Shown here: in pieces, positions 39,210 to 54,185 of the stretch
How positions within the stretch are numbered: position 1 is the stretch's first letter
Layout: each line of letters opens with the position of its first letter
Notes under the pieces: model-generated
What the model saw: the letters and a program-made list of their open reading frames with translations, nothing else
What the model was told of the DNA's origin: nothing
Database searches by the model: none
Translations under genes and position numbers: made by a program
Source: Celeribacter neptunius
GTDB taxonomy: Bacteria > Pseudomonadota > Alphaproteobacteria > Rhodobacterales > Rhodobacteraceae
Assembly: GCF_900113955.1 (NCBI RefSeq)
Contig: NZ_FORH01000003.1
Coordinates: forward strand, 248,001 to 312,000
Reading direction: 5' to 3'
Length of the DNA stretch: 64,000 nt

Positions 39210-40124
39210 TCACGAAAGCCAGATGTCCTCGTAGTTGTTGGCCTTGAAGTGATCCGACAGGAATTCGATGAACAGCCGCGTTTTGGCGGGCATGTGCCGA
39301 CGGGCCGGAAAGGCGATATTGATGGTAAGCTGCGGCAGGTCCCAATCATCGAGCACGCGGACCAGACGCCCGGCCTCCAGGTCTTGCTGCACGATATAAG
39401 ACGGTTGGGCGATGATGCCCATGCCGTCACGCGCCGCCGCCATCAAAAGCTGTCCCTCGTTGCTGGTCAGCGTCGGGGTGACATTGATCGTGGTGCGGGA
39501 ATTGCCCTTTTGCATGTGCAGTCTCAAAGGGTCGTCGGCGAGCATGTAGATCATCATGCGGTGACGTTCGAGGTCCTCAGGATGGCGCGGCATCCCCATT
39601 TCGCCGATGTAATCCGGCGAGGCGACAAGGCGGCGCCGGGTCTTGGCCAGCTTGCGCATGGTGATCGAGCTGTCTTCTTCGACGCGCCGGGTGCGAATGG
39701 CCAGATCGACGCCGGTCTCGATGATGTCGTGATAGCGGTTCGAGGCCGCGATATCGACATGGATGCGCGGGTATTTGCGGGTGAATTCCGGGATCAGTGG
39801 CATCAGGTGCAGCATCGAAAACGAGGTCGAAGCCGTCAGTTTCAATGTGCCCGAAGGCGAATGCGAAACACTGCCGACCAGGGCCTCGGCATCCTGGAGC
39901 TCCGACAGGATGGATTTGCCATAGGAACAAAACAGCTCGCCCTCCTCGGTAAAGGAAATCCGCCGCGTGGTGCGATTGACCAGGCGCACGCCAAGACGCT
40001 CTTCGAGAGAGGCAAGGTGGCGACTTGTGGCCGAGACGGATTGTCCCAGAATCTCGGCGGCCTTGCTGATGCTGCCCTGCTCGACGATCTGCACGAGCAC
40101 TTCTATTTCCGTAAACCGATCCAT
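39210..40124 (-). CDS. LysR-family transcriptional regulator
   Basis: A 304-residue LysR-type regulator. The N-terminal winged helix-turn-helix (about 1-65: GSISKAAEILGQSVSATSRH region, then LGVRLVNRTTRRISFT) is followed by a two-lobe effector domain. GGGGAGG precedes ATG 40124. It is divergent from the Dabb gene across 214 bp. The effector domain resembles those of regulators of aromatic or small-acid catabolism only in general terms. Adjacent catabolic genes and a T-N11-A dyad repeated at three cluster promoters make it the likely regulator of the 39-50 kb cluster. Confidence 0.9.
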   Translation of the reverse strand: MDRFTEIEVLVQIVEQGSISKAAEILGQSVSATSRHLASLEERLGVRLVNRTTRRISFTEEGELFCSYGKSILSELQDAEALVGSVSHSPSGTLKLTASTSFSMLHLMPLIPEFTRKYPRIHVDIAASNRYHDIIETGVDLAIRTRRVEEDSSITMRKLAKTRRRLVASPDYIGEMGMPRHPEDLERHRMMIYMLADDPLRLHMQKGNSRTTINVTPTLTSNEGQLLMAAARDGMGIIAQPSYIVQQDLEAGRLVRVLDDWDLPQLTINIAFPARRHMPAKTRLFIEFLSDHFKANNYEDIWLS

Positions 40125-40177
40125 GGACCTCCCCTTCCATGTTTGCCTCCACGTTTGATGTTAGCGATCACGACAGA

Positions 40178-40194
40178 AATAATCTCGGGTTATT
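40178..40194. promoter_or_regulatory. Dyad AATAA-N7-TTATT in the lysR/Dabb intergenic region
   Basis: Perfect 5-bp arms flank TCTCGGG and also satisfy the LysR T-N11-A rule (T40180 to A40192). It directly adjoins the TTGC-N7-GCAA dyad, so the two could be the recognition and activation sites of one LysR tetramer. Confidence 0.45.
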
Positions 40195-40195
40195 A

Positions 40196-40210
40196 TTGCA
40201 AAATAAGCAA
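40196..40210. promoter_or_regulatory. Candidate LysR box TTGC-N7-GCAA, site A (lysR/Dabb)
   Basis: TTGCAAAATAAGCAA, a dyad with 4-bp arms and a T-N11-A core, is 72 bp from the lysR start and 129 bp from the Dabb start. The same pattern recurs at 41920 and 45004. Confidence 0.6.
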
Positions 40211-40338
40211 ATATCTTTTCCGAACCGGGCGATTTCTTTCGGAAGGCGGAAAGGTAGTTTGGGACTCTACTTGATAAAGAAAATGCGCGTTGCGGCTTTT
40301 GCGGTCCTCGCGCGCAGGCGCGTACTGGGAGGAAAATC

Positions 40339-40650
40339 GTGATCAAACATATCGTCATGTGGAACATGTCAGGGCAAACCGCAGAGGAGCGCAGCAAGGC
40401 AGCACAGGTCGTCAAAGAGAAATTCGAGGGCCTGCGGGACGCCATTCCCGGTCTCATCGAACTTGAAATCGGCATCGACGAAAGCGCCGTGGATTATGCC
40501 TGCGATATCGTACTCTATTCGGTTTTTGACTCCCGGGAGGCGCTCGCCGCCTATGCCAATCACCCGCTGCATCTGAAGGTGCGCGAAGATCTGGGCACCC
40601 TGCGGATCGCCCGGCATCAAGTGGACTATCGACCTGCGGCACAGGTTTGA
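40339..40650 (+). CDS. Dabb (stress-responsive A/B barrel) domain protein
   Basis: A 103-residue protein forming one Dabb domain, a dimeric alpha/beta barrel. Features are the N-terminal IKHIVMWNM strand with its histidine, VVKEKFEGLRDAIPGLIELEIGID and the C-terminal YANHPLHLKVREDLG with another conserved histidine. It starts with GTG after GGGAGGAAAA and is divergent from the LysR gene. Some Dabb proteins are enzymes (olivetolic acid cyclase) and the fold is shared with muconolactone isomerase, so a catalytic role in ring chemistry is possible here; that is inference. A strong terminator follows. Confidence 0.85.
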   Translation: MIKHIVMWNMSGQTAEERSKAAQVVKEKFEGLRDAIPGLIELEIGIDESAVDYACDIVLYSVFDSREALAAYANHPLHLKVREDLGTLRIARHQVDYRPAAQV

Positions 40651-40660
40651 GACCTGATCC

Positions 40661-40690
40661 AGCCCCTTCCGAAATCGGAAGGGGCTTTTC
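40661..40690. terminator. Terminator between the Dabb and maleylacetate reductase genes
   Basis: AGCCCCTTCCGA at 40661-40672 pairs perfectly with TCGGAAGGGGCT at 40675-40686, followed by TTTT. It ends the Dabb transcript; on the other strand it lies 4 bp past the reductase stop and may end that transcript too. Confidence 0.85.
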
Positions 40691-40693
40691 GCA

Positions 40694-41758
40694 TCAATGC
40701 TGCGACGGCGGCCGGCCGTGGAAGGCATCCTCGAGCAAGAGCGTCAGCCCCTCACGGTCCAGCGGGCGCGGATTCCAATAGGGATTTTCCAAACTCAAAT
40801 CGACGACCCGGGCAATGCCCTCTTCCGGCATCTCGAGCGCTTTGAGCCCCTCGGGCGCGCCAATCTCACACCCGATCTCATAGAGACGCCGCGCCGGATC
40901 ATCCGTGTTCAGCGTCTCGCGCAGCCGCGCCATGACCTCCGGAATCGCCGGCGCCGTGTAGGCCAGCGCATGCGGCAGAACGATCGTGTGAGTCGCGGCA
41001 TGCGGCAGATCGAAGGCCCCGCCCAGCGCATGGCAGAGCTTGTGATGCAGCGCCATGCCGACGGTGCCCAGACAGGTGCCGCAGAGCCACGCCCCATAAA
41101 GCGCGTCCGAGCGCGCGGCGCGATCCGCAGGGTCCTTGGCAATGCGCGGTAGCGCCTCGGTCAGAGCCCGCACCCCTTCCGCCGCGATCAGCGACGTGAC
41201 AGGGTTCGCCTCCCGACAATAGAGCGCCTCGATCGCATGCGCGACGGCGTTCATACCGCTCAGCCCAGACATGGCGGCAGGCAGGGTCATGGTCAGATCG
41301 ACATCATAGATCACCGTCTCCGGCAGCACCTTTTCGCTCCTGAGCGTACGTTTCACCCCATCGGCGGTTTCGCCAAGGATGGGTGTCATTTCGGAGCCGG
41401 CATAGGTGGTCGGGATGACGATCTGACCCAGATTTGTCCGCAGAGCCAAAGCTTTGCCCAAACCAATGGTGGAGCCCCCGCCCAGCGACACGATCCCGTC
41501 GGCCCCAACGGATTTCAGATATTTGAGCGCCTGTTCGGTGACCTCCGCGGGCGTGTGCATCCGAGCGTCGGAAAACACCCCGGCACTCAGATCGCCAAGC
41601 GTGTCGGACAGGGCCTGCACCTGATCGACCTGCTGCGGTGTGGAGAGCAACAGAACGCGTGTCATCCCGGCGGCCCGGATCTCCTCCCCCAGGGCCTCAA
41701 GCTTGCCAAAGCCGAACAGGATACGTCCGGGATTCGCGGTGTAGGTAAAGCTGTGCAT
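40694..41758 (-). CDS. Maleylacetate reductase
   Basis: A 354-residue iron-type alcohol dehydrogenase relative of the maleylacetate reductase family, reducing maleylacetate to 3-oxoadipate with NAD(P)H. It begins MHSFTYTANPGRILFG and has GGGSTIGLGKALAL (nucleotide binding), PTTYAGSEMTPILG and the histidine segment HHKLCHALGGAFDLPHAATH. The frame extends upstream, but ATG 41758 has GGAGAGAAG and starts the homology. It is the expected step after the hydroxyquinol dioxygenase at 49.4 kb, supporting one pathway. It is transcribed away from the ketopantoate-reductase-like gene. Confidence 0.9.
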   Translation of the reverse strand: MHSFTYTANPGRILFGFGKLEALGEEIRAAGMTRVLLLSTPQQVDQVQALSDTLGDLSAGVFSDARMHTPAEVTEQALKYLKSVGADGIVSLGGGSTIGLGKALALRTNLGQIVIPTTYAGSEMTPILGETADGVKRTLRSEKVLPETVIYDVDLTMTLPAAMSGLSGMNAVAHAIEALYCREANPVTSLIAAEGVRALTEALPRIAKDPADRAARSDALYGAWLCGTCLGTVGMALHHKLCHALGGAFDLPHAATHTIVLPHALAYTAPAIPEVMARLRETLNTDDPARRLYEIGCEIGAPEGLKALEMPEEGIARVVDLSLENPYWNPRPLDREGLTLLLEDAFHGRPPSQH

Positions 41759-41919
41759 GGTCTTCTCTCCGGTCTCGCGGGGGGATCGGCCAGGACGTCC
41801 TGTCGTCTCCCTCAGGGCGCGCGATGGTGTTTCTTTGCAGTCTTCCTCAGCAAGGATTGCGGGTGAAAACTTGGCAGCAGAAGCGCACATTGGGAACGTG
41901 GAAGAGGTGGGAAACATCT

Positions 41920-41934
41920 TTGCAAATTCTGCAA
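41920..41934. promoter_or_regulatory. Candidate LysR box TTGC-N7-GCAA, site B (maleylacetate reductase)
   Basis: TTGCAAATTCTGCAA has 5-bp arms (TTGCA/TGCAA) and a T-N11-A core. It is 162 bp upstream of the reductase start and on the far side faces the divergent reductase-like gene. Same pattern as 40196 and 45004. Confidence 0.6.
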
Positions 41935-42023
41935 TTATGCCGCTTTCGAAGGCTCTTTCGACAGGCTCACCTCCCCCCTTCCCGTTGCGACCAGGCGTCT
42001 GCGACACCAAGTCAAATAGATTA

Positions 42024-42036
42024 TATCAAATTGATA
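42024..42036. promoter_or_regulatory. 13-bp palindrome TATCAAATTGATA
   Basis: A perfect palindrome (6-bp arms, one central base) lies in the AT-rich part of the divergent region; it also fits T-N11-A. Its arms differ from the TTGC/GCAA boxes, so it may bind another regulator or be a weaker site. Confidence 0.45.
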
Positions 42037-42306
42037 ACAATGACTTTATTTTCAACACCCCACCTTTCCGCAACTCTCGTTCGCATAGGTTCTCAGCCGC
42101 CAAAACGGTCCCACCGACTTATGCAAAATTTGGGGCAATTGGGCGCTTGGCACCCTCTCGCCCCCTGACGGCTCTCTGGACATGCAAAGATTTGCGCTCC
42201 TAAGATCAGGGCAACCGAAAGGCCGAGCACAAACGCACAAGTCGCCGCCTTTCATGACAGACAACAGCACCTGGTGGAGCAGGCGCCGGCTCAGGGAGGA
42301 CACAGA

Positions 42307-43398
42307 ATGACACAACCGCGGATCGCCTATCTTGGGACCGGTGCGAACGGCGCCGGGATCGCGGCGGACATGACCCGCGCGGGCCATGATGTGACCCTGA
42401 TCGAGCAATGGCCCGCCCATGTCGAGGCGATGCGCGCGCATGGCATCATCGTCGAAATGCCGGGCGGACGGTCGGAGACGACGGAGGTCACCGTCAGGCA
42501 CCTTTGCGAAGTGGCCCAATTGCGCCAGAGCTTCGATCTCGTCTATCTCGGCATGAAGGCCTATGATACCCGTTGGGCGGTCGAGTTGATCAAGCCGATG
42601 CTGGCCGAAGACGGTGTGGTCATCGGCATGCAAAACGGCATGACACGCGACACAATCGCCTCGATCGTCGGACCGGATCGCTGCCTTGGCGCGGTGATCG
42701 AGGTCACCGCCAATATGTACACGCCGGGCCGAGTCGACCGGCAAAGCTCGCGTGAAGAAAGCTGGTTCGCGCTCGAAGACAGTGCCGAGGTCGGTGCGGA
42801 GCGTGTTGCGCTGGCGGCAGAGGTACTGCGCGCCGCCGGGACCGTCGATGTTGTGGCGGATATTCACTCCGCGAAATGGATGAAGCTGGCGGTCAATGCC
42901 GCCGAGCTGGTGACCTCTGCACTTGTGGGCCTGCCGTTGATGCACGCGGCGAAAGACCCGGCGCTGTTGAATTTCATGCTGGCCGCCGGTCGCGAAGCGG
43001 TGGCCGCCGCCGCCGCGGACGGGGCGGTTTTGATGCCGATCCTCGGCATGCCCGAGGATGTTGACACCTCCGATCCGGCGGCCTTTGCGGATGCGCTTTT
43101 TGGCAAGGTGCTGTCGTCCTTCTGCCTGCCGGACACGGAAACCACCTGTTTGCAGGACTGGCGCAAGGGACGTCGCAACGAGGTGCACGGGTTGAACGGC
43201 CATGTCGCGGAAGTGGCACACAAAAACGGGCTGCGCGCACCGCTCAATGAACTCACCGTCGCCATGGCCGAGCGCATCGAGGCGGGCGAGATGCCCTTTG
43301 ACGAGACCAACCGCGATGCCATGGCCGCCGCCTTGGCCGAACACTATCCGGAGCTTGGCAACCTTGCCGGGCTTCCTCCGCACATGGCCGGCGCCTGA
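42307..43398 (+). CDS. Ketopantoate reductase-like (ApbA/PanE) oxidoreductase
   Basis: A 363-residue NAD(P)-dependent reductase of the PanE family. The N-terminal Rossmann motif is YLGTGANGAGIAADM (residues 6-20), and the C-terminal all-helical domain has the family lysine in SAKWMKLAVNAAELVTSAL. It is about 60 residues longer than E. coli PanE, so true ketopantoate reduction is doubtful. GGGAGGA precedes ATG 42307. Located with hydroxyquinol-pathway genes, it probably reduces or oxidises a hydroxy/keto-acid intermediate of the imported substrate. Exact reaction unknown. Confidence 0.82.
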   Translation: MTQPRIAYLGTGANGAGIAADMTRAGHDVTLIEQWPAHVEAMRAHGIIVEMPGGRSETTEVTVRHLCEVAQLRQSFDLVYLGMKAYDTRWAVELIKPMLAEDGVVIGMQNGMTRDTIASIVGPDRCLGAVIEVTANMYTPGRVDRQSSREESWFALEDSAEVGAERVALAAEVLRAAGTVDVVADIHSAKWMKLAVNAAELVTSALVGLPLMHAAKDPALLNFMLAAGREAVAAAAADGAVLMPILGMPEDVDTSDPAAFADALFGKVLSSFCLPDTETTCLQDWRKGRRNEVHGLNGHVAEVAHKNGLRAPLNELTVAMAERIEAGEMPFDETNRDAMAAALAEHYPELGNLAGLPPHMAGA

Positions 43399-43420
43399 CA
43401 CGCAGGGCCGCGCCACTCTG

Positions 43421-43437
43421 GCTCAGAAAGTCTGAGC
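43421..43437 (+). other. Short hairpin after the reductase-like gene
   Basis: GCTCAGA-AAG-TCTGAGC is a perfect 7-bp inverted repeat 23 bp past the stop, with no T run. Possibly a weak terminator or mRNA processing site. Confidence 0.35.
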
Positions 43438-43538
43438 ACCACGAAATTTGAGCACAGCAAGAATTGCCGATCTGTCCCCGGGCGCCGCACAGCCTGCGGT
43501 CGGGACAGGACATGCACCGACATCAAGGGAGAGAGAGT

Positions 43539-44984
43539 ATGACCAGAATTTTGATCAAGAACGCCGCCGTCGTGACGATGGACGACCGTATCGGCGATTT
43601 CGAGACCGCCGACATCCTGATCGAGGACGGCGAGATCAAGGAGATCCGCCCCGACATCGACGCGGAGGCCAGCGTGGATGCAAAGATCATCGACGCCGCG
43701 GGCATGATCGCCATTCCGGGCCTCTGGGATGCACACCGCCACACCTGGCAGACGGGCCTGCGCGGCATTCTCGCCGACGGGCGTATTCCCGATTACCTGC
43801 GCGGGTTCCGCATCCAGATGGCGACGCTCTATCGCCCCGAGGACATGTATGCCGCGAACTATGCCGGCGGGCTCGATTGTCTTGAGAACGGCGTGACCGG
43901 TCTGGTGGACTATTGCCACAACATCATCAACGAAGATTACGCCCGCGCCTCGGTCGAGGGGCTCAAGGCCTCCGGCGTGCGGGGTCTCTATGGGCATGGC
44001 ATGGTGCCGGTGACGGAGAACACCTTTGCCGATGGGCGCGGCTTGTCCGAAGGCAATGAAAAGGCCGATCTCAGCCACAACTGGCGCTATGAGACCGCGC
44101 GCGAGATCCGCAAGGAATATTTCGGCGACGATGACCTTCTGCGCTTCGGCATCGCGCCACAGGAACTGGCCATCGCCCCCGCCGCAGAGGTGGAGCAGGA
44201 GTTCGATCTGGCGCGTGAGCTGAACGCCCGGATCACCTTCCACAGCAATCAGGTCGCGGTGCCCGACGGCGGGATGCGCGACATGCACACCCTGTCCGAA
44301 CACGGGCTTTTGGGGCCGGATGTGAACCTCGTGCATATGACCTTCACCAATCCGGAAGAATGGGACATTCTCGATGGCTCCGGCGCCTCCGTGACGCTCT
44401 GCGCGGAAACCGAGATGCAGATGGGCATGGGCTTTCCGGTGGCCGTCGAGGCGACGCGCTATACCGAAGCCGGCCCGAGCCTCGGCATGGATTGCACCAG
44501 CAGCACCAGCGGCGACATGCTCGCCCACGCGCGTCTTGTGCTGCAATGCACCCGCTGGCATGGCGACGCGGTGCATTACGAGAACTTCAGCCACCCGAAA
44601 AAAATCCACTGGACGACCCGCGATGCGCTGGCCTGGGTGACGATCAACGGCGCCCGTGCCGCGGGCGTCGACGACATCACCGGCTCTCTGACGCCGGGCA
44701 AACGCGCGGATATCGTGCTCTTGGACATGCGCGGCATCGCCTTTGCCGGCTGGAACCGCAAGGACCCGTGCAGCATGGTCGTGTCGCAGGCCAACAGCCG
44801 CAATGTTCACACGGTTCTGGTGGATGGCAAGATCGTCAAACAGGGCGGGCCTCTGTTGCACGTCGATCCCGAGGCGGCGGTGGCCAAGCTCGAAAGCTCG
44901 CATGATTTCCTCAACGAAGTCATGGACGAAAATGGCGGTTTCATCCCGCAGCCCCCGGTGCCGCTGCCGCTTTACGAAGCGTGA
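43539..44984 (+). CDS. Amidohydrolase-family enzyme (ATZ/TRZ/cytosine-deaminase-like)
   Basis: A 481-residue metal-dependent hydrolase. The N-terminal beta-sandwich (ILIKNAAVVTMDDR) is followed by the TIM-barrel HxH metal site in GLWDAHRHTWQTGLRG, then FHSNQ, VHMTF and the catalytic aspartate in SLGMDCTSSTSGDM, and a C-terminal GSLTPGKRADIVLLD closing motif. This layout matches the subgroup with atrazine chlorohydrolase, guanine/8-oxoguanine and S-adenosylhomocysteine deaminases. GGGAGAGAG precedes ATG 43539. In this cluster it may deaminate or hydrolyse the imported compound before ring cleavage. Substrate not predictable. Confidence 0.85.
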   Translation: MTRILIKNAAVVTMDDRIGDFETADILIEDGEIKEIRPDIDAEASVDAKIIDAAGMIAIPGLWDAHRHTWQTGLRGILADGRIPDYLRGFRIQMATLYRPEDMYAANYAGGLDCLENGVTGLVDYCHNIINEDYARASVEGLKASGVRGLYGHGMVPVTENTFADGRGLSEGNEKADLSHNWRYETAREIRKEYFGDDDLLRFGIAPQELAIAPAAEVEQEFDLARELNARITFHSNQVAVPDGGMRDMHTLSEHGLLGPDVNLVHMTFTNPEEWDILDGSGASVTLCAETEMQMGMGFPVAVEATRYTEAGPSLGMDCTSSTSGDMLAHARLVLQCTRWHGDAVHYENFSHPKKIHWTTRDALAWVTINGARAAGVDDITGSLTPGKRADIVLLDMRGIAFAGWNRKDPCSMVVSQANSRNVHTVLVDGKIVKQGGPLLHVDPEAAVAKLESSHDFLNEVMDENGGFIPQPPVPLPLYEA

Positions 44985-44999
44985 TGGCGGGAGCGTAGT

Positions 45000-45022
45000 T
45001 TTCTTGCGAAATTCGCAAGAAA
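45000..45022. promoter_or_regulatory. Perfect palindrome containing TTGC-N7-GCAA, site C
   Basis: TTTCTTGCGAA at 45000-45010 and TTCGCAAGAAA at 45012-45022 form a perfect 11-bp dyad around one base. The core 45004-45018 is TTGC-N7-GCAA with T-N11-A. It lies 16 bp after the amidohydrolase stop and 141 bp before the YciI gene, so it probably controls the YciI-transporter-dioxygenase unit. Confidence 0.65.
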
Positions 45023-45097
45023 CTTTCCCGAAAACCCCAGATTTTCCCATGTTTTGGGAGATGGCATAGTCAAAAGGCCATAGTCATCAAAGGACCA

Positions 45098-45123
45098 CAG
45101 GGGGCGACAGGCGTCGCCCCCTG
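45098..45123 (+). other. GC-rich hairpin upstream of the YciI gene
   Basis: CAGGGGGCGAC at 45098-45108 pairs perfectly with GTCGCCCCCTG at 45113-45123 (loop AGGC). No T run follows. It sits 40 bp before the YciI start, in the expected leader, and could attenuate transcription or protect a processed 5' end. Confidence 0.5.
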
Positions 45124-45162
45124 CCAGACCCCGCATATCTGCCACACCGCGAAGGAGATACC

Positions 45163-45456
45163 ATGCTGTTCGTTATCCACTGCCTCGATCACCCCGGCAA
45201 AGTCGCGGATCGGCTGGCGCATTATGACGCACACAAAAGCTACCTCGCCTCGGCGCCGGTCGCCTCGGTGGTGTCGGGGCCGCTGCTGGCCGACGACCAC
45301 GAGACGATGATCGGCTCCATGTTCATCGTCGAGGCGGAGAGCATCGACGCGGTGAAACAGTTCAACGCGAACGATCCGTTCCATGCCGCAGGGATTTGGC
45401 AAGAGATCAACATTCATCCGTTCAGCATGCGCGTCGACAATCGCGGCGCCCGCTGA
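45163..45456 (+). CDS. YciI-family protein
   Basis: A 97-residue YciI-like protein with a ferredoxin-like dimeric alpha/beta fold. The family His-Asp pair is in LAHYDAHKSYLASAP, and the C-terminal FNANDPFHAAGIWQEINIHPF matches the consensus DPF..AGl. GAAGGAG precedes ATG 45163. The fold is related to muconolactone isomerase, and YciI homologues occur in chloroaromatic and hydroxyquinol pathways, so an isomerase or hydrolase function is possible. It leads the unit YciI-binding protein-ATPase-permease-dioxygenase. Confidence 0.85.
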   Translation: MLFVIHCLDHPGKVADRLAHYDAHKSYLASAPVASVVSGPLLADDHETMIGSMFIVEAESIDAVKQFNANDPFHAAGIWQEINIHPFSMRVDNRGAR

Positions 45457-45488
45457 TCGGGAAACGGGCCTGCGGGAGGGTGGGGCCG

Positions 45489-45533
45489 GATCAGGAAGTT
45501 CGTGATCAGAAAGCTCATGATCAAAAGGCTCAT
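45489..45533 (+). repeat. Three tandem 15-bp repeats before the binding-protein gene
   Basis: GATCAGGAAGTTCGT, GATCAGAAAGCTCAT and GATCAAAAGGCTCAT follow head to tail. The second and third differ at two positions, the first at more. The array ends 25 bp before the binding-protein start, upstream of its ribosome site. Not coding in any plausible frame. Confidence 0.75.
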
Positions 45534-45558
45534 GAGAGCCAGTAAGGGAGGACGTACA

Positions 45559-46698
45559 ATGACATATTCTTACACGGCCAAAGGACGGGGGGCAGCGCTT
45601 GCCACAACGCTCCTTGGCGCGGCCATGGCCGTCTCGGCACAGGCCGAAACCGCCGACATCGTGGCGCAATCGACCGAAATCGTCGAACAGGGCTACGCCG
45701 GTCTCTACGAGGCGCCGCCAAGCTCCGGCCCGGCCGCCGTCGAGGGCAAGAACATCTGGTATATTTCCTGCGGACAGGCCTTTGTGCTCTGCGCCCAGCA
45801 GGCCGCGGGCTTTGAAGAGGCCGCTGAACATCTCGGCTGGACCGTCAGCATTCAGGACGGCAAGGCGACGCCCTCGATTGCCAGCGACATCATCCGCCAG
45901 GCGGTGGCCGCCAAGGTCGACGGCATCGCCATCTCGGCCTTCGATTGCCCGGGTATCAAAAGCGCCCTGCTTCAGGCCAAGGCCGACGGCGTGCCCGTTG
46001 TCTCGGTTCAGTCGATCGATTGCAGCGCCGATGTGTTCGGCGCGGAAGAGCCGCTGTTCACCGCCTCGGTCAACATGCTGGGCTCCACCGATGCGCGGGA
46101 TTTCTACTACCGTTTCGGCGAATTGCGCGCGCATTACGTGATCGCCAAGACCGGCGGCGAGGGCAAGATCGTCTCCATCGCCGAAACCAGCCAACAGGTT
46201 CAGCAGTCGAACCATCAGGGCTTTATGGACATCATCGGCAAATGCGAGGGTTGTGAGGTCGCGGAATCGACCTTCAACTTTGGTCAGGTGCCCAGCCCGG
46301 CAACGCAAATCTGGCAATCGGCGTTGCTTCAGAACCCCGATGCGGTGGCCGTGGAATACGGCATCGACGCGCTCATGGAGCTTGGGCTTCAGACCGCCGT
46401 GCGCCAAACCGGGCGGCGCGATCTGATCGTGGGCGGCGGCGAAGGCTTCCCGAACAATTTCGAGCAGATCCGCTCCGGCACGCAGACCTTCTCCATCGGG
46501 CTGCCGTTCAAATGGTTCGGCTGGGCCGTGGCCGACACGATGAACCGCGTCCAGGCGGGCGAGGCGCCGGAGGACATGCCGAGCCAAGGCACCGGGTTCA
46601 TGTTCGTCGATGCGGAGCACAACCTGCCCGCGTCGGGGGAGATGCTGGAACCGCCCGTGGATTTCCGCGCCGCCTATCTTTCGATCTGGAACGGATAA
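45559..46698 (+). CDS. Ribose-type ABC transporter, periplasmic substrate-binding protein
   Basis: A 379-residue periplasmic binding protein of the sugar-binding Peripla_BP_4 type. A signal peptide ends at VSAQA-ETAD (about residue 30). The mature chain shows the two-lobe pattern, with NIWYISCGQAFVLCAQQAAGFEEAAEHLGW at the first lobe and hinge segments later. Four or more cysteines (SCGQ, LCAQQ, DCPG, DCSAD, GKCEGCE) are unusual for this class and may form disulfides. ATG 45559 follows GGGAGGA. The ligand is unlikely to be a common sugar given the aromatic-pathway context; this is inference. Confidence 0.85.
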   Translation: MTYSYTAKGRGAALATTLLGAAMAVSAQAETADIVAQSTEIVEQGYAGLYEAPPSSGPAAVEGKNIWYISCGQAFVLCAQQAAGFEEAAEHLGWTVSIQDGKATPSIASDIIRQAVAAKVDGIAISAFDCPGIKSALLQAKADGVPVVSVQSIDCSADVFGAEEPLFTASVNMLGSTDARDFYYRFGELRAHYVIAKTGGEGKIVSIAETSQQVQQSNHQGFMDIIGKCEGCEVAESTFNFGQVPSPATQIWQSALLQNPDAVAVEYGIDALMELGLQTAVRQTGRRDLIVGGGEGFPNNFEQIRSGTQTFSIGLPFKWFGWAVADTMNRVQAGEAPEDMPSQGTGFMFVDAEHNLPASGEMLEPPVDFRAAYLSIWNG

Positions 46699-46733
46699 AC
46701 GAACGGTCGTGCCGGGGGCATCCCCGACACGCC

Positions 46734-46780
46734 GGGACATGTGGCGGCCTCTTCCCATACTCAGGCGCGCCACATGTCCC
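46734..46780 (+). other. Strong hairpin between binding-protein and ATPase genes
   Basis: GGGACATGTGGCG at 46734-46746 pairs perfectly with CGCCACATGTCCC at 46768-46780 (loop 21). A second imperfect hairpin (CGTGCCGGGG/TCCCCGACACG) lies just before it. Typical of sites that raise the amount of binding-protein message over that of the ATPase. Confidence 0.65.
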
Positions 46781-46821
46781 TCTGTGCCCCTGCGGCACAG
46801 CTCGGCAGGAGGAAAACCAAC

Positions 46822-48381
46822 ATGCAACACACAACAGACACGACAGGCCCGTCGCACGCCCTGCGCATCCGCAACCTGTCCAAATCCTTTGGCCAGACAC
46901 AGGCGCTGGATGGGGTGTCCTTTGACATCCGCGCGGGTGCGGTTCACGGGCTCTTGGGCGGCAACGGATCGGGAAAATCGACCCTGATCAAGGCGCTGGC
47001 CGGGGTTCAGACGGCCGAACATGGCGGCGAGATCGAGTTTCTCGGCACCAAGGTCTCCGCCGATCACATGACGCCCGAACTGGCGCGGTCTCTGGGGTTG
47101 CGCTTCGTGCACCAGAACCCGGCGGTCTTCCCCGCGATGACGGTGGCCGAAAACATCGCCATCGGGGCCAAGTTTCCGACGACGGCGGGCAAAATCCGCT
47201 GGAAAGAGCTGCATACACACGCCCAAGAGCTGCTCGACAGGTTCGAGATTGCGGCCAAGGCCGATGATATCGTCGGCGATCTGCGACAGGCGGAACAGAC
47301 GATGATCGCCATCGCCCGCGCGCTTCAGGACGCCGATAAAAACGCCGTTTCCGCGCTGGTGCTCGACGAACCCACTGCCTCCCTGCCCGACCATGAGGTC
47401 GATATTCTGCTCGACGCTGTTCGGCGGTTTGCGGCAGAGGGACATACGATCATTTACGTGAGCCACCGCCTCGATGAGGTGATCCAGCTCACCGATGACG
47501 TGACGATCCTGCGCGATGGTCACCATGTTGTCACCCGCCCGACCGAAGGTCTCTCGGAGACCGATCTGATCGAATTGATCGTCGGGCACAGCCTTGAGAA
47601 ATCCTACGCGTCGGCGCATGCGAAAGCCCCCGTTGCAACGACGCAGCCGCGTCTCGAGGTGCGCAACCTTGCGGGCGGCCCGCTGCAGGACGTGAGTTTC
47701 GATGTCGCGCCGGGCGAAGTGCTTGGCATTGCTGGCCTCTTGGGCTCCGGGCGCACCGAAATCCTGCGCATACTCTTCGGCGATCTGGCGCATGAGGGTG
47801 GCAGTATTGCCCTCGACGGCCAGCCCGTTGCCTTCAAGGAAGTGCGCGAAGGCATGAAGGCCGGTGTGGCGCTCGTGCCGGAAGATCGCAATCGCGAAGG
47901 CGTGTTTCAAGGGCTGTCGGTGCGGCACAATCTGTCGATTGCCGATCTGGGCCGTTTTGCCCGACGCGGTCGGATCAATGGCAAAGCCGAGCGCAAGGAA
48001 GCGCTGCGCTCCGTCGCAAATTACCGGATCAAGACTGCCGACGACGCAGCGCTGATCTCGTCTCTCTCGGGCGGCAATCAGCAAAAGGTGGTGATGGCCC
48101 GCTGGCTGCGCCGCAAGCCGAAATTGCTTTTGCTGGATGAGCCAACCCAGGGCGTCGATGTCGGCGCGCGCGAAGATCTCTACGCCTCGATCCGCGGCAG
48201 CCTCAAGGACGGGATGTCCGTGATCGCCGTCAGCTCCGATTTCGATGAGCTTGCCCAGATTTGCGACCGCGTGATCGTCCTGCGGGACGGTCGCATCACC
48301 GATGAGCTTTCGGGCCAGGACATTAACCGACAGACAATGACCCATCTGGTTCTCGCCAGCAGCGGAAAGGATGCCGCATGA
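46822..48381 (+). CDS. Ribose-type ABC transporter, duplicated ATPase
   Basis: A 519-residue RbsA/MglA-like protein with two ATPase domains. The first has Walker A GGNGSGKSTLIKAL and Walker B ALVLDEPTASLPD; its signature segment is DLRQAEQTMIAIARAL, lacking the canonical LSGGQ. The second has degenerate Walker A GLLGSGRTEILR, signature LSGGNQQKVVMARWL and Walker B LLLDEPTQGVDVGA. This asymmetry is normal for the family. GGAGGAAAA precedes ATG 46822; the permease start overlaps its stop by 4 bp. Confidence 0.92.
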   Translation: MQHTTDTTGPSHALRIRNLSKSFGQTQALDGVSFDIRAGAVHGLLGGNGSGKSTLIKALAGVQTAEHGGEIEFLGTKVSADHMTPELARSLGLRFVHQNPAVFPAMTVAENIAIGAKFPTTAGKIRWKELHTHAQELLDRFEIAAKADDIVGDLRQAEQTMIAIARALQDADKNAVSALVLDEPTASLPDHEVDILLDAVRRFAAEGHTIIYVSHRLDEVIQLTDDVTILRDGHHVVTRPTEGLSETDLIELIVGHSLEKSYASAHAKAPVATTQPRLEVRNLAGGPLQDVSFDVAPGEVLGIAGLLGSGRTEILRILFGDLAHEGGSIALDGQPVAFKEVREGMKAGVALVPEDRNREGVFQGLSVRHNLSIADLGRFARRGRINGKAERKEALRSVANYRIKTADDAALISSLSGGNQQKVVMARWLRRKPKLLLLDEPTQGVDVGAREDLYASIRGSLKDGMSVIAVSSDFDELAQICDRVIVLRDGRITDELSGQDINRQTMTHLVLASSGKDAA

Positions 48382-49412
48382 CACTCGCCAAAGATACCCA
48401 AACCCTTCCTACTCAGGCTCTGAAAAAACCGGCCGGACAGGGCTTTAAAAGGACCGAATTCATCGAGCGCGCGGGGCTGATCCTGTTGCTGCTTCTGGTG
48501 ATCGTGGTGTTCAGCGGGCTGCGCCCGAACACCTTCGCGACCTATGCCAATTTCCGCAGCATCGCGACGGTGCAGCCGGTGATGGCGGTCACGGCGATTG
48601 CCCTGATCGTGCCCCTGATCGGTGGACGGTTCGACGTTTCCGTCGGGGCCACCTTGGGCCTGTCCGCGATTGCCACCGCCTCCGCTATGAGCCATTTCGA
48701 TCTGCCGCTTGTCGTCAGCATTGTCATCGGCATTGGCGCCGGCGCCTTGATCGGGGCGATCAATGGCACCATCGTGGCCTATCTCGGCGTCAACTCGATC
48801 ATTGGCACGCTTGGGATCGCGACGATCCTTGGCGGCATCGTGACCGGCTACACCAACGGCATTCCGATCAGCAGCGGCCTCTCACCCGTCCTGACCAATA
48901 TCTCGATCCAATCGGTGTTCGGCATTCCGGTGCTGTTCATCCTCATGGCGCTCATCGCGGCGGCGGCCTGGTTCCTGCTGACCCAGACGCCCTATGGCCG
49001 CAATCTCGCGGCGGTCGGCTCCAACGCCGAGTCCGCACGACTGGCAGGCATCCGCACCAAGCGAGTCGTGATGCAGAGCTTTGTCATCGCGGGCAGCCTC
49101 GCGGGCGTCGCCGGAGTGCTCCAGATCGGCGCACAGGGCAATGCAGGCCCGCAGCTCGTCGGCATCACCTTTATCCTGCCGGCACTGGCCGCCGCCTTCC
49201 TTGGCGCGACCACATGGGAGCCGGGCAAGTTCACGGTGCAGGGCACGTTGATCGGGATTTTCTTTCTCGGCACAACGATCAGTGGCCTGTCGCTTGTGGG
49301 CATCCAGCCGTGGATCACCGATGTGTTCAACGGGGCCGCCGTGGTGCTTGCGATTGCGCTTTCGGCACAGCTGCGCCGTCGCCGGACCGGGTCGCTGGAA
49401 ATCGGCAGTTAA
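48378..49412 (+). CDS. Ribose-type ABC transporter permease
   Basis: A 344-residue inner-membrane permease of the RbsC/BPD_transp_2 family with about ten hydrophobic helices. The conserved stretch PLIGGRFDVSVGATLGLSA is followed by GAINGTIVAYLGVNSIIGTLG and YGRNLAAVGSNAESARLAGI, the family coupling loop. ATGA overlap with the ATPase. The dioxygenase gene starts 20 bp after it, so uptake and ring cleavage are co-transcribed. Confidence 0.92.
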   Translation: MTLAKDTQTLPTQALKKPAGQGFKRTEFIERAGLILLLLLVIVVFSGLRPNTFATYANFRSIATVQPVMAVTAIALIVPLIGGRFDVSVGATLGLSAIATASAMSHFDLPLVVSIVIGIGAGALIGAINGTIVAYLGVNSIIGTLGIATILGGIVTGYTNGIPISSGLSPVLTNISIQSVFGIPVLFILMALIAAAAWFLLTQTPYGRNLAAVGSNAESARLAGIRTKRVVMQSFVIAGSLAGVAGVLQIGAQGNAGPQLVGITFILPALAAAFLGATTWEPGKFTVQGTLIGIFFLGTTISGLSLVGIQPWITDVFNGAAVVLAIALSAQLRRRRTGSLEIGS

Positions 49413-49432
49413 GAGCAGAATAGGAGACCAAC

Positions 49433-50272
49433 ATGAGCAAATATTTTTCCGAGGAGCGCTCCGCCGAGGTGGTGAACGCGCGTATGGGCGACGCGATCAA
49501 TCCGCGCCTGAAAGAGGTGATGGCCAGCCTCGTGACCCATCTGCACGCCTTCGCCAAGGACGTCGATCTGAGCCAGGAGGAATGGGACATCGCCATCGAT
49601 TTCCTGACACGGACGGGCCAGATCTGCACAGAGGAGCGGCAGGAGTTCATCCTGCTCTCCGACATCCTCGGGTTCTCGATGCTGGTCGACGCGATCAGCA
49701 ACCGCAGGCCCGAAGGCGCGACCGAGAACACTGTCTTCGGTCCGTTTCATGTGGCCAATGCGCCGGTCCGTGAGTTTGGCGAGACCATTTCGCTCGACGG
49801 CAAGGGTGAGCCCTGTCTGTTCACCGGCAAGGTGCTCGACACTGACGGCACGCCCATCGCGGGCGCCTGCGTTGATGTGTGGAGCGACAATTCGGACGGC
49901 TATTACGATGTGCAACAGCCGGATATTCAGCCGAAATGGAACAACCGGGGCCGGTTTATCACCCGCGAGGACGGCAGCTACAGCTTTGTCGGCATCAAAC
50001 CGGTGAGCTATCCGATCCCCGACGACGGTCCGGTGGGCAAGCTTCTGGGCGCGCTGGGGCGGCATCCCTATCGTCCGGCCCATATGCATTTCCTTGTGAC
50101 CGCCGAGGGCCATCAGACCATCGTCACGCATACATTCGTCGGCGATGACAGCTATATCGGCGACGACACGGTGTTCGGCGTCAAGGAAACGCTGGTCGCC
50201 CCTTTCACCAAGACGGACGGTTCCGAGACCTCCTGGCTCTCCGAATTCGACTTCGTGATGGTGCGTGCATAA
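49433..50272 (+). CDS. Hydroxyquinol 1,2-dioxygenase (intradiol type)
   Basis: A 279-residue non-heme Fe(III) intradiol dioxygenase, predicted to cleave hydroxyquinol (1,2,4-trihydroxybenzene) to maleylacetate. The N-terminal helical dimer domain is at about 10-100, then the catalytic beta domain. Fe ligands are Y158 (DGYYDVQ), Y193 (KPVSYPIPDDGPVG), H217 and H219 (RPAHMHF). DGYYDVQ and the RPAHMHFLV form are closer to hydroxyquinol than to catechol 1,2-dioxygenases, which usually have RPAHIHF or RPAHVHF. TAGGAGA precedes the ATG. Chlorocatechol activity cannot be excluded. Confidence 0.88.
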   Translation: MSKYFSEERSAEVVNARMGDAINPRLKEVMASLVTHLHAFAKDVDLSQEEWDIAIDFLTRTGQICTEERQEFILLSDILGFSMLVDAISNRRPEGATENTVFGPFHVANAPVREFGETISLDGKGEPCLFTGKVLDTDGTPIAGACVDVWSDNSDGYYDVQQPDIQPKWNNRGRFITREDGSYSFVGIKPVSYPIPDDGPVGKLLGALGRHPYRPAHMHFLVTAEGHQTIVTHTFVGDDSYIGDDTVFGVKETLVAPFTKTDGSETSWLSEFDFVMVRA

Positions 50273-50304: not shown

Positions 50305-51003
50305 TCAATAAAAAGGGTCGTCCAAAAGACGATCCGGTTTTGCAAAACGCTCGAGGTCTGCCTGATCCGAAATCGTAATATGCTGCCCATCGATCGTGAC
50401 GCCATACGCCTGCAGCCCCTTGAAGGCGCGGCTGAGGTTTTCCGGCGTCATCCCGAGATAGGAGGCTAAACGGCGCTTCTCGAAGGGCAGATCGAATTCA
50501 TGCGAAACACCCTCACGTTTCTGATGTCGCAAGAGGTAATTCGCCAGGCGTTCAAGCGACGTGCGCAGTTTCTGTTCCTTTTGCGTCTTGATGACAGCGC
50601 GATAACACTCCGCCAGTTCAGTCACCATGGCACGCGCAAAAGCATTGTCCAATTCGAAGACCTTGCGCACATCCTCGCTGGGGATCAGGGCGACACGGCT
50701 CTTCTCCAATGTCCGCGCGGACATGAGATAAGGCGCATCCTTGATGGTTGCAGCCAGAATGAAGCTGTTCACAGGGCGAAGTGTGGCCATGATCGTTTCC
50801 CGTCCGTTCCAGCTGGAAAAGAGATCAACGGAACCGGACAGAAGGACGTGGAGAAAGTCGCTTGCGGCCCCCTCCTCGATCAATTCGAGCTGCGGCGGGA
50901 AATTCTGAACATAGGCACCCCGCATGAGCATCTGAAAATGCTCATCCGACATTTCTGAGAACAAGTGAAGCTCCCGCACATCCTGATGGGATAATGCTGG
51001 CAT
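50305..51003 (-). CDS. narR: NarR, Crp/Fnr-family regulator of nitrate respiration
   Basis: A 232-residue Crp/Fnr-type activator. A cyclic-nucleotide-like beta barrel (about 20-120) is followed by a long dimer helix and a helix-turn-helix with RLASYLGMTPENLSRAFKGLQ. It has no N-terminal cysteine cluster, so unlike FNR it does not carry an oxygen-sensing 4Fe-4S centre. This fits NarR, which in Paracoccus is encoded next to and needed for narKGHJI expression in response to nitrate or nitrite. It is divergent from narK1, with an FNR-type box between. AGGAGG precedes ATG 51003 at a long spacing of about 11. Confidence 0.85.
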   Translation of the reverse strand: MPALSHQDVRELHLFSEMSDEHFQMLMRGAYVQNFPPQLELIEEGAASDFLHVLLSGSVDLFSSWNGRETIMATLRPVNSFILAATIKDAPYLMSARTLEKSRVALIPSEDVRKVFELDNAFARAMVTELAECYRAVIKTQKEQKLRTSLERLANYLLRHQKREGVSHEFDLPFEKRRLASYLGMTPENLSRAFKGLQAYGVTIDGQHITISDQADLERFAKPDRLLDDPFY

Positions 51004-51029
51004 CGTGTTTCAACCTCCTGTTGCGCACC

Positions 51030-51039
51030 GACAATTGTC
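51030..51039. promoter_or_regulatory. Palindrome GACAATTGTC upstream of narR
   Basis: A perfect 10-bp palindrome 27 bp before the narR start. It could be an operator for narR itself; short palindromes also arise by chance. Confidence 0.35.
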
Positions 51040-51163
51040 AGGCCTTGGCGCAAAATATGTCAAGCACAAGAGACATCAGGTGCAATTCGACTGCATAAAC
51101 ATGCCATCCACGCCCATGACAAATTTATGTAAGTCATTTATATATCAAGATTTTCTGCATTTC

Positions 51164-51177
51164 GTGATATAGATCAA
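51164..51177 (+). promoter_or_regulatory. NarR/FNR-type box upstream of narK1
   Basis: GTGAT-ATAG-ATCAA differs from TTGAT-N4-ATCAA at one base. Its centre at 51170.5 predicts a start site near 51212, 47 bp before narK1. Most likely bound by NarR, perhaps also by an FnrL protein. Confidence 0.68.
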
Positions 51178-51258
51178 GTCCCAATTCGCCCCTTCCGTTC
51201 TTTTGTCGGCCAAGCCCTCTCCGGGCGTTTCGTCACTCTGCCAATTAGGGGAACAACG

Positions 51259-52683
51259 ATGGAGCTCGAAAACAAGGCCACCGCATTGTGGTCCAACTTT
51301 CTGAACGTCAAAATGCCACAGATCAGAACCTTCCACATGACGTGGTTCGCGTTCTTTTCCTGTTTTTTCGCGTGGTTCGGTATCGCGCCGTTGATGAGCG
51401 TCGTGCGTGATGAATTGATGCTGACCAAGGATCAGATCGGCTGGGCCATCATCGGCTCCGTGTCGATCACGATTTTTGCCCGCCTGTTCATTGGCTGGCT
51501 CTGCGACAGAATCGGGCCGAGGAAGGCCTACACCTGGTTGTTGGTGATCGGCTCCCTTCCGGTGATGGGAATCGGGCTAAGCTGGAACTTCGAAAGCTTT
51601 CTGCTGTTCCGCGTCTTGATCGGTGGCATCGGCGCATCCTTTGTGATCACCCAATACCATACAACGGTTATGTTCGCCCCCAACGTCGTCGGCCAGGCAA
51701 ATGCGACATCCGCCGGATGGGGTAACCTCGGCGGTGGCGTGACGCAATTCGTGATGCCTCTGCTGTTCTCGGTCTTCGTTGTCGGCTTCGGCTTTTCCGA
51801 GGCGGTTGGCTGGCGCCTGTCCATGGTCGTCGTCGGCGTCATCATTCTGTTGATCGGTATCGCTTATTTCTTCCTGACCCAGGATGCGCCGGACGGCAAC
51901 TTCGACGATTTGCGGGCGCAAAACCGGATGCCCGAAAAGAAAAAGGTCACCGGGAACTACATGAACGCCCTCAAAGACCCGCGGGTCTGGGTGCTCTTCG
52001 TCATCTATGGCTCCTGCTTCGGTATCGAACTGACCGTGAACAACGTCGCCGCACTCTATTTTGCGGATTACTTCGATCTCTCGCTCGTCGCTGCCGGGTT
52101 CGTCGCCGCCTCCTTTGGCCTGATGAACCTGTTTGCCCGCACCCTGGGTGGGGTTTTCGGTGACAATTTCGGGGCGCTCTGGGGCTTGAAAGGGCGCAGC
52201 TTCTGGCTGTTCATCTGTCTGCTCTTCGAAGGCATCGCCCTGATCATCTTCAGCCAGATGCAGGTGCTCTTTCTCGCCCTGCCTTCGCTGATCGTCTTCT
52301 CGTTGTTCACCCAGATGGCCGAAGGTGCCACCTATTCCGTCGTTCCCTTCATCAACAAGAAAGCGCTCGGCGCCGTGGCCGGTGTCGTGGGCGCCGGCGG
52401 CAATGCCGGCGCGGTTCTGGCCGGGTTCCTCTTCAAGAATATGATCGACTGGTCCGAAGCATTCCAGGTGCTCGGTATCGTGGTCGCGTGCGCCTCCTTC
52501 CTCGCCTTCTTTGTGCGGTTCTCGACCCGCCAGGAAGACGAGGAGCGCGCCGCCTTTGCGATCGCGAATATCGAGACTTTGCGCCGTCGCGCGGAAAAGG
52601 CGAATGCCGCGCTCGAACATGGCCTGAACGCGCTTGAAGCGCGCCGGCCCCAGGCGGCGCAAGACGGACAACCCGCGGAATAA
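51259..52683 (+). CDS. narK1: NarK1-type nitrate/H+ symporter
   Basis: A 474-residue major facilitator protein with 12 hydrophobic helices of the nitrate/nitrite porter family. Signature regions include RLFIGWLCDRIGPRKAYTWLL after helix 2, and helix 5 contains GWGNLGGGVTQFVMP (nitrate signature GxGNxGGG). Type I NarK proteins are thought to import nitrate with protons. First structural gene of the nar operon. In some Paracoccus strains NarK1 and NarK2 are fused into one 24-helix protein; here they are two genes. Confidence 0.88.
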   Translation: MELENKATALWSNFLNVKMPQIRTFHMTWFAFFSCFFAWFGIAPLMSVVRDELMLTKDQIGWAIIGSVSITIFARLFIGWLCDRIGPRKAYTWLLVIGSLPVMGIGLSWNFESFLLFRVLIGGIGASFVITQYHTTVMFAPNVVGQANATSAGWGNLGGGVTQFVMPLLFSVFVVGFGFSEAVGWRLSMVVVGVIILLIGIAYFFLTQDAPDGNFDDLRAQNRMPEKKKVTGNYMNALKDPRVWVLFVIYGSCFGIELTVNNVAALYFADYFDLSLVAAGFVAASFGLMNLFARTLGGVFGDNFGALWGLKGRSFWLFICLLFEGIALIIFSQMQVLFLALPSLIVFSLFTQMAEGATYSVVPFINKKALGAVAGVVGAGGNAGAVLAGFLFKNMIDWSEAFQVLGIVVACASFLAFFVRFSTRQEDEERAAFAIANIETLRRRAEKANAALEHGLNALEARRPQAAQDGQPAE

Positions 52684-52691
52684 ACCAACCT

Positions 52692-52712
52692 GCGCCCCGC
52701 CGCGCGGGGCGC
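52692..52712 (+). other. Hairpin between narK1 and narK2
   Basis: GCGCCCCGC-CGC-GCGGGGCGC, a perfect 9-bp GC stem without T run. Probably an mRNA stability or processing element within the operon. Confidence 0.5.
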
Positions 52713-52748
52713 GCATAACAATCCCAACGCCAAGTGGAGGAGAACCCA

Positions 52749-54146: not shown

Positions 54147-54155
54147 CCCAACAAC

Positions 54156-54185
54156 GGGGTCACGCACGCCCCTGTGCGTGGCCCC
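54156..54185 (+). other. Hairpin between narK2 and narG
   Basis: GGGGTCACGCAC at 54156-54167 pairs with GTGCGTGGCCCC at 54174-54185 (one G-U). Loop 6, no T run. It lies 24 bp before narG, just before its ribosome site, and may set a processed 5' end for the narGHJI message. Confidence 0.6.

Follow-up and report, generated by a model that had tools for sequence, protein, structure and literature searches.

How a bacterium could supply hydroxyquinol to a ring-cleavage pathway without a flavin monooxygenase encoded beside it is the question raised by a ten-gene block of Celeribacter neptunius. The block lies at positions 39210–50272 of the window, by which we mean the whole 64,000-nucleotide stretch that was analysed (contig NZ_FORH01000003.1, positions 248,001 to 312,000). 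It encodes a LysR-type regulator, a Dabb protein, a maleylacetate reductase (MAR), a PanE-like dehydrogenase, an amidohydrolase (AHase), a YciI-family protein, the three components of a CUT2 importer, and a hydroxyquinol 1,2-dioxygenase (HQD). The LysR and MAR genes are on the minus strand, and the other eight genes are on the plus strand. All of the genes named in an earlier note on this DNA were found in place by Pfam and NCBIfam matches, and no flavin monooxygenase was found among the open reading frames (ORFs) and the Pfam and NCBIfam matches of 39210–50272. We consider it somewhat more probable than improbable that the block is a LysR-controlled catabolic island, which would convert a hydrophilic ring compound to hydroxyquinol without an oxygenase and then to 3-oxoadipate.

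The alignment of HQD with solved relatives placed all four iron ligands that the earlier note had picked (Y158, Y193, H217, and H219). The nearest solved structure was 8r2x, named 6-chlorohydroxyquinol-1,2-dioxygenase (E 1.8e-131, 440.8 bits). The other solved hydroxyquinol-type enzymes scored 253 bits (3n9t, PnpC) and 248.5 bits (1tmx, hydroxyquinol 1,2-dioxygenase), and the chlorocatechol and catechol enzymes scored at most 141 and 139 bits, respectively. Residues L74, D77, V101–F105, I195, P196, R214, and V247 of HQD matched all of the pocket residues of 1TMX that we take, with their numbering, from the structure work of 2005 to set the preference for hydroxyquinol. These results suggest with good confidence that 49433–50272 encodes a hydroxyquinol-type dioxygenase, for which a preference for hydroxyquinol over catechol is predicted. 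In the HQD tree, the enzyme clusters with the HQDs of resorcinol-type, FAD-monooxygenase, and some cyclitol-type gene clusters.

MAR was 52–60% identical to five annotated maleylacetate reductases, and no dedicated maleylacetate reductase model was among its NCBIfam matches. It was assigned on its iron-dependent alcohol dehydrogenase (Fe-ADH) fold, its nearness to annotated maleylacetate reductases, and the HQD gene close by. A profile search of the genome found pcaF (681 bits against a cut-off of 597) and four pcaJ-family genes that passed the cut-off, on other contigs. Because these genes are present elsewhere in the genome, 3-oxoadipate can probably be finished by the host. The HQD residues and the MAR identity thus back the pathway end read in the earlier note, cleavage of hydroxyquinol followed by reduction of maleylacetate, and the lower end from hydroxyquinol to 3-oxoadipate can be assigned from the sequence with good confidence.

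All ten genes recur in identical order and orientation, with identities of 62–95%, in each of the three other genomes in which a close AHase copy was found, which are those of Salipiger abyssi, Tropicimonas sp. IMCC34043, and an uncultured Rhizobium (a metagenome-assembled genome, MAG). The block, which we call type I, therefore occurs in Roseobacteraceae and Rhizobiaceae. Its proteins were 77–95% identical in S. abyssi and Tropicimonas and 62–82% identical in the Rhizobium MAG; the values were 95, 91, and 82–83%, respectively, for AHase, and 93–94% in the first two genomes and 77% in the third for LysR. The genes could have parted company in other genomes, an outcome that the earlier note had considered, and they stayed together in 3/3. 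The absence of a monooxygenase that would make hydroxyquinol, as reported in that note, extends from the window to the other three copies (4/4 type I blocks), in which the largest gap is <0.6 kb and leaves no room for one. The 10-kb flanks of the block in the window, and five proteins encoded in them, gave no match in the three orthologous loci, in which the sequence compared reaches approximately 5 kb past either end of the block, whereas the block itself gave 4–6 matching pieces in each locus. This difference indicates that the block is a discrete island.

AHase is rare, and its distribution is patchy. It matched at E≤1e-60 in 5 of the 390 genomes of the window's order, two of these being close copies (its own genome and Tropicimonas, 91%) and the other three being 36–41% identical. 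None of the five other listed genomes of the same genus had it, and class-wide (385 genomes) the window's own genome alone passed 1e-85. These counts are lower bounds, as up to four candidates were scored per genome. A scan of GTDB contigs with two peptide patterns, by which orthologues can be missed, gave ten AHase relatives, three of which were orthologues. No HQD was found in the DNA surrounding the other seven (L022–L028; short for L025), of which four had AHase alone and three (L024, L027, and L028; actinobacterial) had AHase with CUT2 genes. As judged by these comparisons, the block is one real, conserved catabolic unit.

The motif TTGC-N7-GCAA occurs three times in the 64 kb, and all three copies are intergenic within the block (Table 1). 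Exact copies were found at the same places in Tropicimonas (3/3), Salipiger (2/3), and the Rhizobium MAG (2/3). The ten genes are probably co-regulated, and we infer that the block is controlled by its own LysR. What is read directly from the DNA is which genes are present and how they are conserved, the HQD catalytic residues, these common boxes, and the pcaF and pcaJ-family genes.

Table 1. Features of the ten-gene block, in window positions.
Feature	Position	Strand	Basis or remark
LysR-type regulator	39210..40124	-	Pfam HTH_1 and LysR_substrate
Operator-like TTGC-N7-GCAA, LysR/Dabb intergenic	40196..40210		Exact in 3/4 blocks, not in Salipiger
Dabb protein	40339..40650	+	PF07876
Inverted repeat and T-run, probable terminator, between convergent Dabb and MAR	40651..40693		By eye in sequence
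MAR (maleylacetate reductase)	40694..41755	-	Fe-ADH families
Operator-like TTGC-N7-GCAA, MAR/PanE intergenic	41920..41934		Exact in 4/4 blocks
PanE-like two-domain dehydrogenase	42307..43398	+	ApbA and ApbA_C
AHase, ATZ/TRZ-fold amidohydrolase, PRK08204 subfamily	43539..44984	+	Amidohydro_1, NF006056
TTGC-N7-GCAA between AHase and YciI, operator or terminator stem	45004..45018		Exact in 3/4 blocks, not in Rhizobium MAG
YciI-family protein	45163..45456	+	PF03795
CUT2 importer, periplasmic binding protein	45559..46698	+	Peripla_BP_4
CUT2 importer, double ATPase	46822..48381	+	Two ABC_tran stretches
CUT2 importer, permease	48378..49412	+	BPD_transp_2
HQD (hydroxyquinol 1,2-dioxygenase)	49433..50272	+	Dioxygenase_N and Dioxygenase_C

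Directly upstream of the block, 34653–38969 (minus strand) encodes a 1438-residue protein with repeats and a region that by eye resembles an extracellular nuclease domain. Directly downstream, 50305–57944 holds one ORF that is Crp/Fnr-like, two that are transporter-like, and one of 1256 residues that by eye resembles a nitrate reductase alpha chain. The Tropicimonas genome (G340/G772) has a second HQD-like gene at C5:794885-795728, split over two reading frames.

AHase scored over the cut-off for NF006056/PRK08204 (408.8 vs 391), a subfamily labelled "hypothetical protein", and no characterised member of the subfamily was among its family-model and structure matches. The fold matches of its AlphaFold model (pLDDT 70) were AtzA, TrzN, and S-adenosylhomocysteine (SAH)/adenosine deaminases at approximately 20% identity; this search confirms the AtzA/TrzN/deaminase group and has no bearing on the substrate. 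The putative metal ligands H66, H68, H235, H266, and D318 (HxH, H, H, D) were invariant in 7/7 aligned sequences, and an E-x-E-M stretch (E290, E292) was invariant in the aligned AHases of type I and of type II (described below). With low confidence, AHase may act on a hydroaromatic ring, by hydrolysis of a C-N or C-O bond or by a metal-lyase reaction.

The importer has the Pfam composition of the CUT2 family, a Peripla_BP_4 binding protein, a double ATPase, and a single BPD_transp_2 permease, which agrees with the ribose-type ABC importer described in the earlier note. The best NCBIfam models were xylose/ribose ATPases for the ATPase and a ribose permease for the permease, all below the cut-off. 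The binding protein gave weak PDB matches to solved sugar/ribose-binding proteins, and its AlphaFold model (4 sequences) had a pLDDT of 34. The best of its plasmid relatives (35%) is from Streptomyces chartreusis, where the surrounding locus encodes flavin oxidoreductases, a cupin, FAH, and a maleylpyruvate isomerase and looks like gentisate-type ring catabolism; this single case would fit a ring-compound ligand. A more distant relative (26%, Rhizobium lentis) lies among sugar-acid genes. The contrast that had been drawn with known hydroxyquinol clusters, said to use MFS transporters, was overstated, since Liv-type ABC importers were present in two of the four inspected HQD clusters of the monooxygenase/hydroxylase type. 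An ABC importer alone is therefore not unusual, and the unusual feature is the combination of a CUT2 importer and AHase without a monooxygenase.

The PanE-like protein scored 136.8 bits against TIGR00745, under the curated cut-off of 141.35, and is not assigned as a PanE ketopantoate reductase. Dabb relatives were found beside MAR and HQD in 8/8 inspected plasmid contexts that have Dabb and no AHase (L029, L031, L032, L034–L037, and L039), and we propose that Dabb is a tautomerase-like helper of the lower pathway. The Dabb-HQD cluster of Stutzerimonas is preceded by a ring-hydroxylating dioxygenase and a glutamine-synthetase-like gene, and that of Agrobacterium leguminum has a different arrangement again. 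Because Dabb thus occurs in clusters of more than one kind, it marks the lower pathway and not the substrate. In the Stutzerimonas stutzeri CSW02 plasmid (L037, 5265–15421), the glutamine-synthetase-like gene, the ring-hydroxylating dioxygenase, HQD, Dabb, and MAR form one run, which lies near a mercury-resistance transposon and resembles a route from an aromatic amine to hydroxyquinol.

Plasmids of Bosea vestrisii, Bosea vaviloviae, and Skermanella rosea carry an AHase of the same subfamily with HQD, MAR, and CUT2 genes, an arrangement that we call type II. The gene beside AHase in the two scanned plasmids, those of B. vaviloviae and Skermanella, encodes a HIBADH-family dehydrogenase. Bosea type II also has a divergent LysR/Dabb pair and YciI, and the window LysR was 48% identical to that of the B. 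vaviloviae cluster. Within the order of the Rhizobium MAG, the AHase profile matched at E≤1e-90 in 37 of 397 genomes, and HQD was sought in 36 of the 37 plus the MAG itself. The ten best AHases besides that of the MAG (631–665 bits) were all approximately 1 kb from an HQD on the same contig, three of these loci (G1025, G1099, and G1112) being judged from coordinates alone. AHase and HQD lay within approximately 6 kb on the same contig in 14/37 genomes (G770, the ten top-tier genomes, G1066, G837, and G872). The other seven of these ten loci were fetched, and their genes were labelled by BLAST against our own reference set rather than a profile library. All seven have MAR, CUT2 genes, YciI, and a dehydrogenase of the HIBADH type, and 6/7 have LysR/Dabb. 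The recurrent order was Dabb-MAR-AHase-HIBADH-HQD-(FAD oxidase)-ATPase-permease-permease-binding protein-YciI, with the exceptions of L072, which has no FAD oxidase, and L073, which has no Dabb and LysR beside MAR; in L070, HQD and MAR are split over two frames.

Types I and II form separate, well-supported clades in the AHase tree, and the type II HQDs form a clade of their own apart from the window HQD; the deep branch order is unsure, because the deep branches join long rows. As types I and II fall in separate clades for both enzymes, the pairing of AHase with HQD was probably made at least twice, and such repeated pairing argues for a functional link between them. Two other loci, L064 (7878–12990) and L065 (6818–11907), have three tandem amidohydrolases followed directly by an HQD-like dioxygenase, a short-chain dehydrogenase (SDR), and a member of the BKACE family, and approximately 4 kb further lies another amidohydrolase, the fourth; their dioxygenases form their own clade with that of L066. 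A further locus, L071 (4040–16984), has an HQD cluster with an FAD monooxygenase, a Liv importer, BKACE, and ThuA, and its amidohydrolase is approximately 51% identical to that of Skermanella.

We inspected seven HQD clusters of a cyclitol type, from Rhizobium (four), Sinorhizobium, Loktanella, and Aureimonas, and found no AHase of the window's subfamily in them. No flavin monooxygenase was annotated beside HQD in the seven clusters, for which the PLSDB gene tables are incomplete. The clusters of Rhizobium tumorigenes, Rhizobium sp. WL3, Sinorhizobium sp. B11, and Loktanella salsilacus have a PanE-like gene (53–54% identical to that of the window), YciI, MAR, HQD, and a CUT2-like importer, with Dabb in 2/4, as well as annotated butanediol/zinc dehydrogenases, SDRs, and Gfo/Idh/MocA proteins. 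YciI copies in the related hydroxyquinol clusters were 50–60% identical. Dehydrogenases and TIM barrels were profile-scanned in three of the seven clusters (L029, L032, and L034). IolM was the nearest family for the two zinc enzymes of R. tumorigenes, at 144 and 164 bits against a cut-off of 450. For two TIM barrels of Rhizobium leguminosarum, which also has SDRs, the nearest family was QuiC, with scores (46 and 36 bits) far below the cut-off, and the R. beringeri cluster is annotated like that of R. leguminosarum. The plasmid of Aureimonas sp. AU20 (L034, 8893–16997) has an inositol 2-dehydrogenase IolG over the curated cut-off (406.6 vs 355), a Gfo/Idh/MocA protein, a QuiC-like TIM barrel, and then Dabb-MAR-HQD-CoA transferase-PcaF, with IolG and these last five genes in a single run. 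This Aureimonas locus is the clearest candidate for a cyclitol-to-hydroxyquinol pathway, and the cyclitol-type enzymes of the related clusters lend indirect support to the polyhydroxylated ring that had been suggested as the substrate.

From these genes we infer the steps upstream of hydroxyquinol, the class of the substrate, and the roles of Dabb and YciI as follows. The CUT2 importer would take up a ring compound that is small and hydrophilic, either free or as a conjugate. AHase would hydrolyse a C-N or C-O bond or serve as a metal lyase/isomerase, and the PanE-like enzyme would oxidise or reduce the compound with NAD(P). The resulting product would be, or would readily turn into, hydroxyquinol, with no oxygenase needed to that point; the upper half is best read as oxygenase-free. 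HQD would open hydroxyquinol to give 3-hydroxymuconate/maleylacetate, a step in which Dabb and YciI probably assist in the manner of tautomerases, and MAR would convert maleylacetate to 3-oxoadipate, for which CoA transfer and thiolysis would be supplied from elsewhere in the genome. More tentatively, and as a possibility that we rate below an even chance, the block may be the amidohydrolase-dependent branch of a class of pathways in which non-aromatic polyhydroxylated rings (cyclitol-like or N-substituted), imported by CUT2 systems, would need nothing beyond dehydrogenation and dehydration/hydrolysis to be aromatised to hydroxyquinol. The arithmetic agrees, as a deoxy-inositol (C6H12O5) minus 2 H and 2 H2O is C6H6O3, hydroxyquinol, and 2-deoxy-scyllo-inosose is converted chemically to hydroxyquinol. 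The substrate may be a root or nodule metabolite, since the clusters recur in the order of the Rhizobium MAG, in Bosea, and on rhizobial plasmids.

Several observations weigh against this oxygenase-free pathway. The nearest HQD relatives belong to clusters with a monooxygenase or hydroxylase, and an unlinked hydroxylase could therefore still supply hydroxyquinol. The cyclitol link comes from relatives, in which the cyclitol-family matches outside Aureimonas IolG were far below the cut-off; IolG/IolE-type families were absent from the listed matches of the ten proteins of the block. By BLASTP at 1e-5, the window binding protein did not match its counterparts in B. vaviloviae, Skermanella, R. 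tumorigenes, or R. leguminosarum, and the cluster types may therefore import different compounds. No HQD was nearby in 23/37 AHase-positive genomes (elsewhere or none), several of which have small contigs on which links can be missed. As for AHase, the Glu of the AtzA HMAE/HxxE motif, which we take to be E246, is replaced by Gln238 in 4/4 type I enzymes, and the position is not Glu in 3/3 aligned type II enzymes. As AHase is without the usual catalytic Glu, simple deamination is unsupported and hydrolysis is uncertain, which weakens the proposal of the earlier note that the compound is hydrolysed or deaminated. The number of boxes is ordinary (shuffles gave a mean of 1.42, and 18/100 reached ≥3), and the argument from them therefore rests on position and conservation. 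Three further box matches were found in the Rhizobium MAG locus, one in the MAR/PanE region and two elsewhere. Among the type II loci scanned (L043, L044, L068–L070, L072, L074, and L075), L072 alone matched, outside the LysR/Dabb region, and the box is thus not common to type II. Of the overall reading in the earlier note, the conserved block, the hydroxyquinol end, and the absence of a monooxygenase stand, the deamination is weakened, and the MFS contrast does not hold as worded.

The placement of the window HQD in one clade with the HQDs of resorcylate-type and FAD-monooxygenase clusters would suit a resorcinol/phenol-type pathway, in which a monooxygenase encoded elsewhere makes hydroxyquinol, and AHase and the PanE-like enzyme trim a side chain or conjugate (amide, ester, or sugar acid). 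We regard this as unlikely, though the best placed of the alternatives. In L071, which is from the window's family, a LysR gene lies between AHase and an HQD cluster that includes an FAD monooxygenase, and an FAD monooxygenase-like gene lies just outside the cluster in the type II loci L044 and L070. However, none of the four type I blocks, with their short gaps, has a monooxygenase, none is annotated between Dabb and YciI in B. vaviloviae, and none is labelled between MAR and YciI in the seven fetched type II regions.

Another possibility is that the substrate of HQD is a hydroxyquinol with a chloro, amino, or methyl substituent, derived from a xenobiotic or a plant compound, and that AHase removes the substituent in the manner of AtzA/TrzN. 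The name of the nearest solved HQD relative, a 6-chlorohydroxyquinol dioxygenase, and the fold matches of AHase to AtzA and TrzN speak for it. The replacement of the AtzA catalytic Glu in AHase speaks against it, as does the presence of the block in two families, which would fit a natural compound better than a recent xenobiotic, and we consider it distinctly improbable. Chance or transient assembly, in which a self-contained lower pathway for hydroxyquinol came to lie next to a CUT2/amidohydrolase uptake operon that has nothing to do with it, would account for the differing HQD and AHase trees, the patchy island (0/5 other listed genomes of the genus), and the actinobacterial loci L024, L027, and L028 with AHase and CUT2 genes and no HQD, but is very improbable given the identical ten-gene order in four genomes, the re-assembly of a similar functional set in type II, and the same box in three intergenic regions.

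Three candidate substrates were rejected on general chemical grounds: mycosporine-like amino acids have a 1,2,3-oxygen pattern and need demethylation, inositol itself has one oxygen too many for hydroxyquinol, and s-triazines have no benzene ring. Paracetamol/4-aminophenol is a source of hydroxyquinol-type intermediates in the literature and would fall under the substituted-hydroxyquinol alternative; PMC9420511 proposes hydroxyquinol as a possible intermediate of its breakdown, with amidases and RidA-type deaminases, and this published set is not that of the window.

If the upper half is oxygenase-free, hydroxyquinol would be an entry point for hydrophilic ring compounds, beyond hydroxylated aromatics, and the annotation of a group of binding proteins as sugar importers would be wrong. 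If the wider class of pathways exists, it would connect carbohydrate-like compounds with the 3-oxoadipate pathway, no oxygenase acting until the ring is cleaved. Identification of the substrate would annotate many clusters together and assign a reaction to an amidohydrolase of the PRK08204 subfamily. Among the matches listed from the open-licence literature, no description of this gene set or of a cyclitol-to-hydroxyquinol route was found.

Among known systems, AtzA, TrzN, and the SAH deaminases share the fold and metal ligands of AHase, but at approximately 20% identity only, and AHase is without their HxxE catalytic Glu. The resorcinol/gamma-resorcylate clusters on plasmids of Rhizobium etli, Paracoccus, Pseudosulfitobacter, and Thioclava encode HQDs 75% and MARs 51–55% identical to those of the window. 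They have a flavin-dependent hydroxylase beside HQD, annotated in three of the four; in R. etli, a flavin reductase and an acyl-CoA-dehydrogenase-like protein presumably form the hydroxylase. In contrast, the window block has no such gene, a linked flavin hydroxylase is missing from 4/4 type I blocks, and the window block adds AHase, the PanE-like protein, Dabb, YciI, and the CUT2 importer. The cyclitol-type clusters share HQD, MAR, and a CUT2-like importer with the window in 7/7 cases, YciI in six, Dabb in five, and the PanE-like gene in four, and, unlike the window, carry Gfo/Idh/MocA-, Zn-dehydrogenase-, SDR-, or TIM-barrel-type genes. The type II clusters share the AHase subfamily, HQD, MAR, and a CUT2 importer, and mostly the LysR/Dabb divergence and YciI, with AHase 36–38% and HQD 49–53% identical to those of the window. 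They differ in having a HIBADH-family dehydrogenase where the window has one of the PanE family, and in having two permeases, a different binding protein, and usually an extra FAD-linked oxidase.

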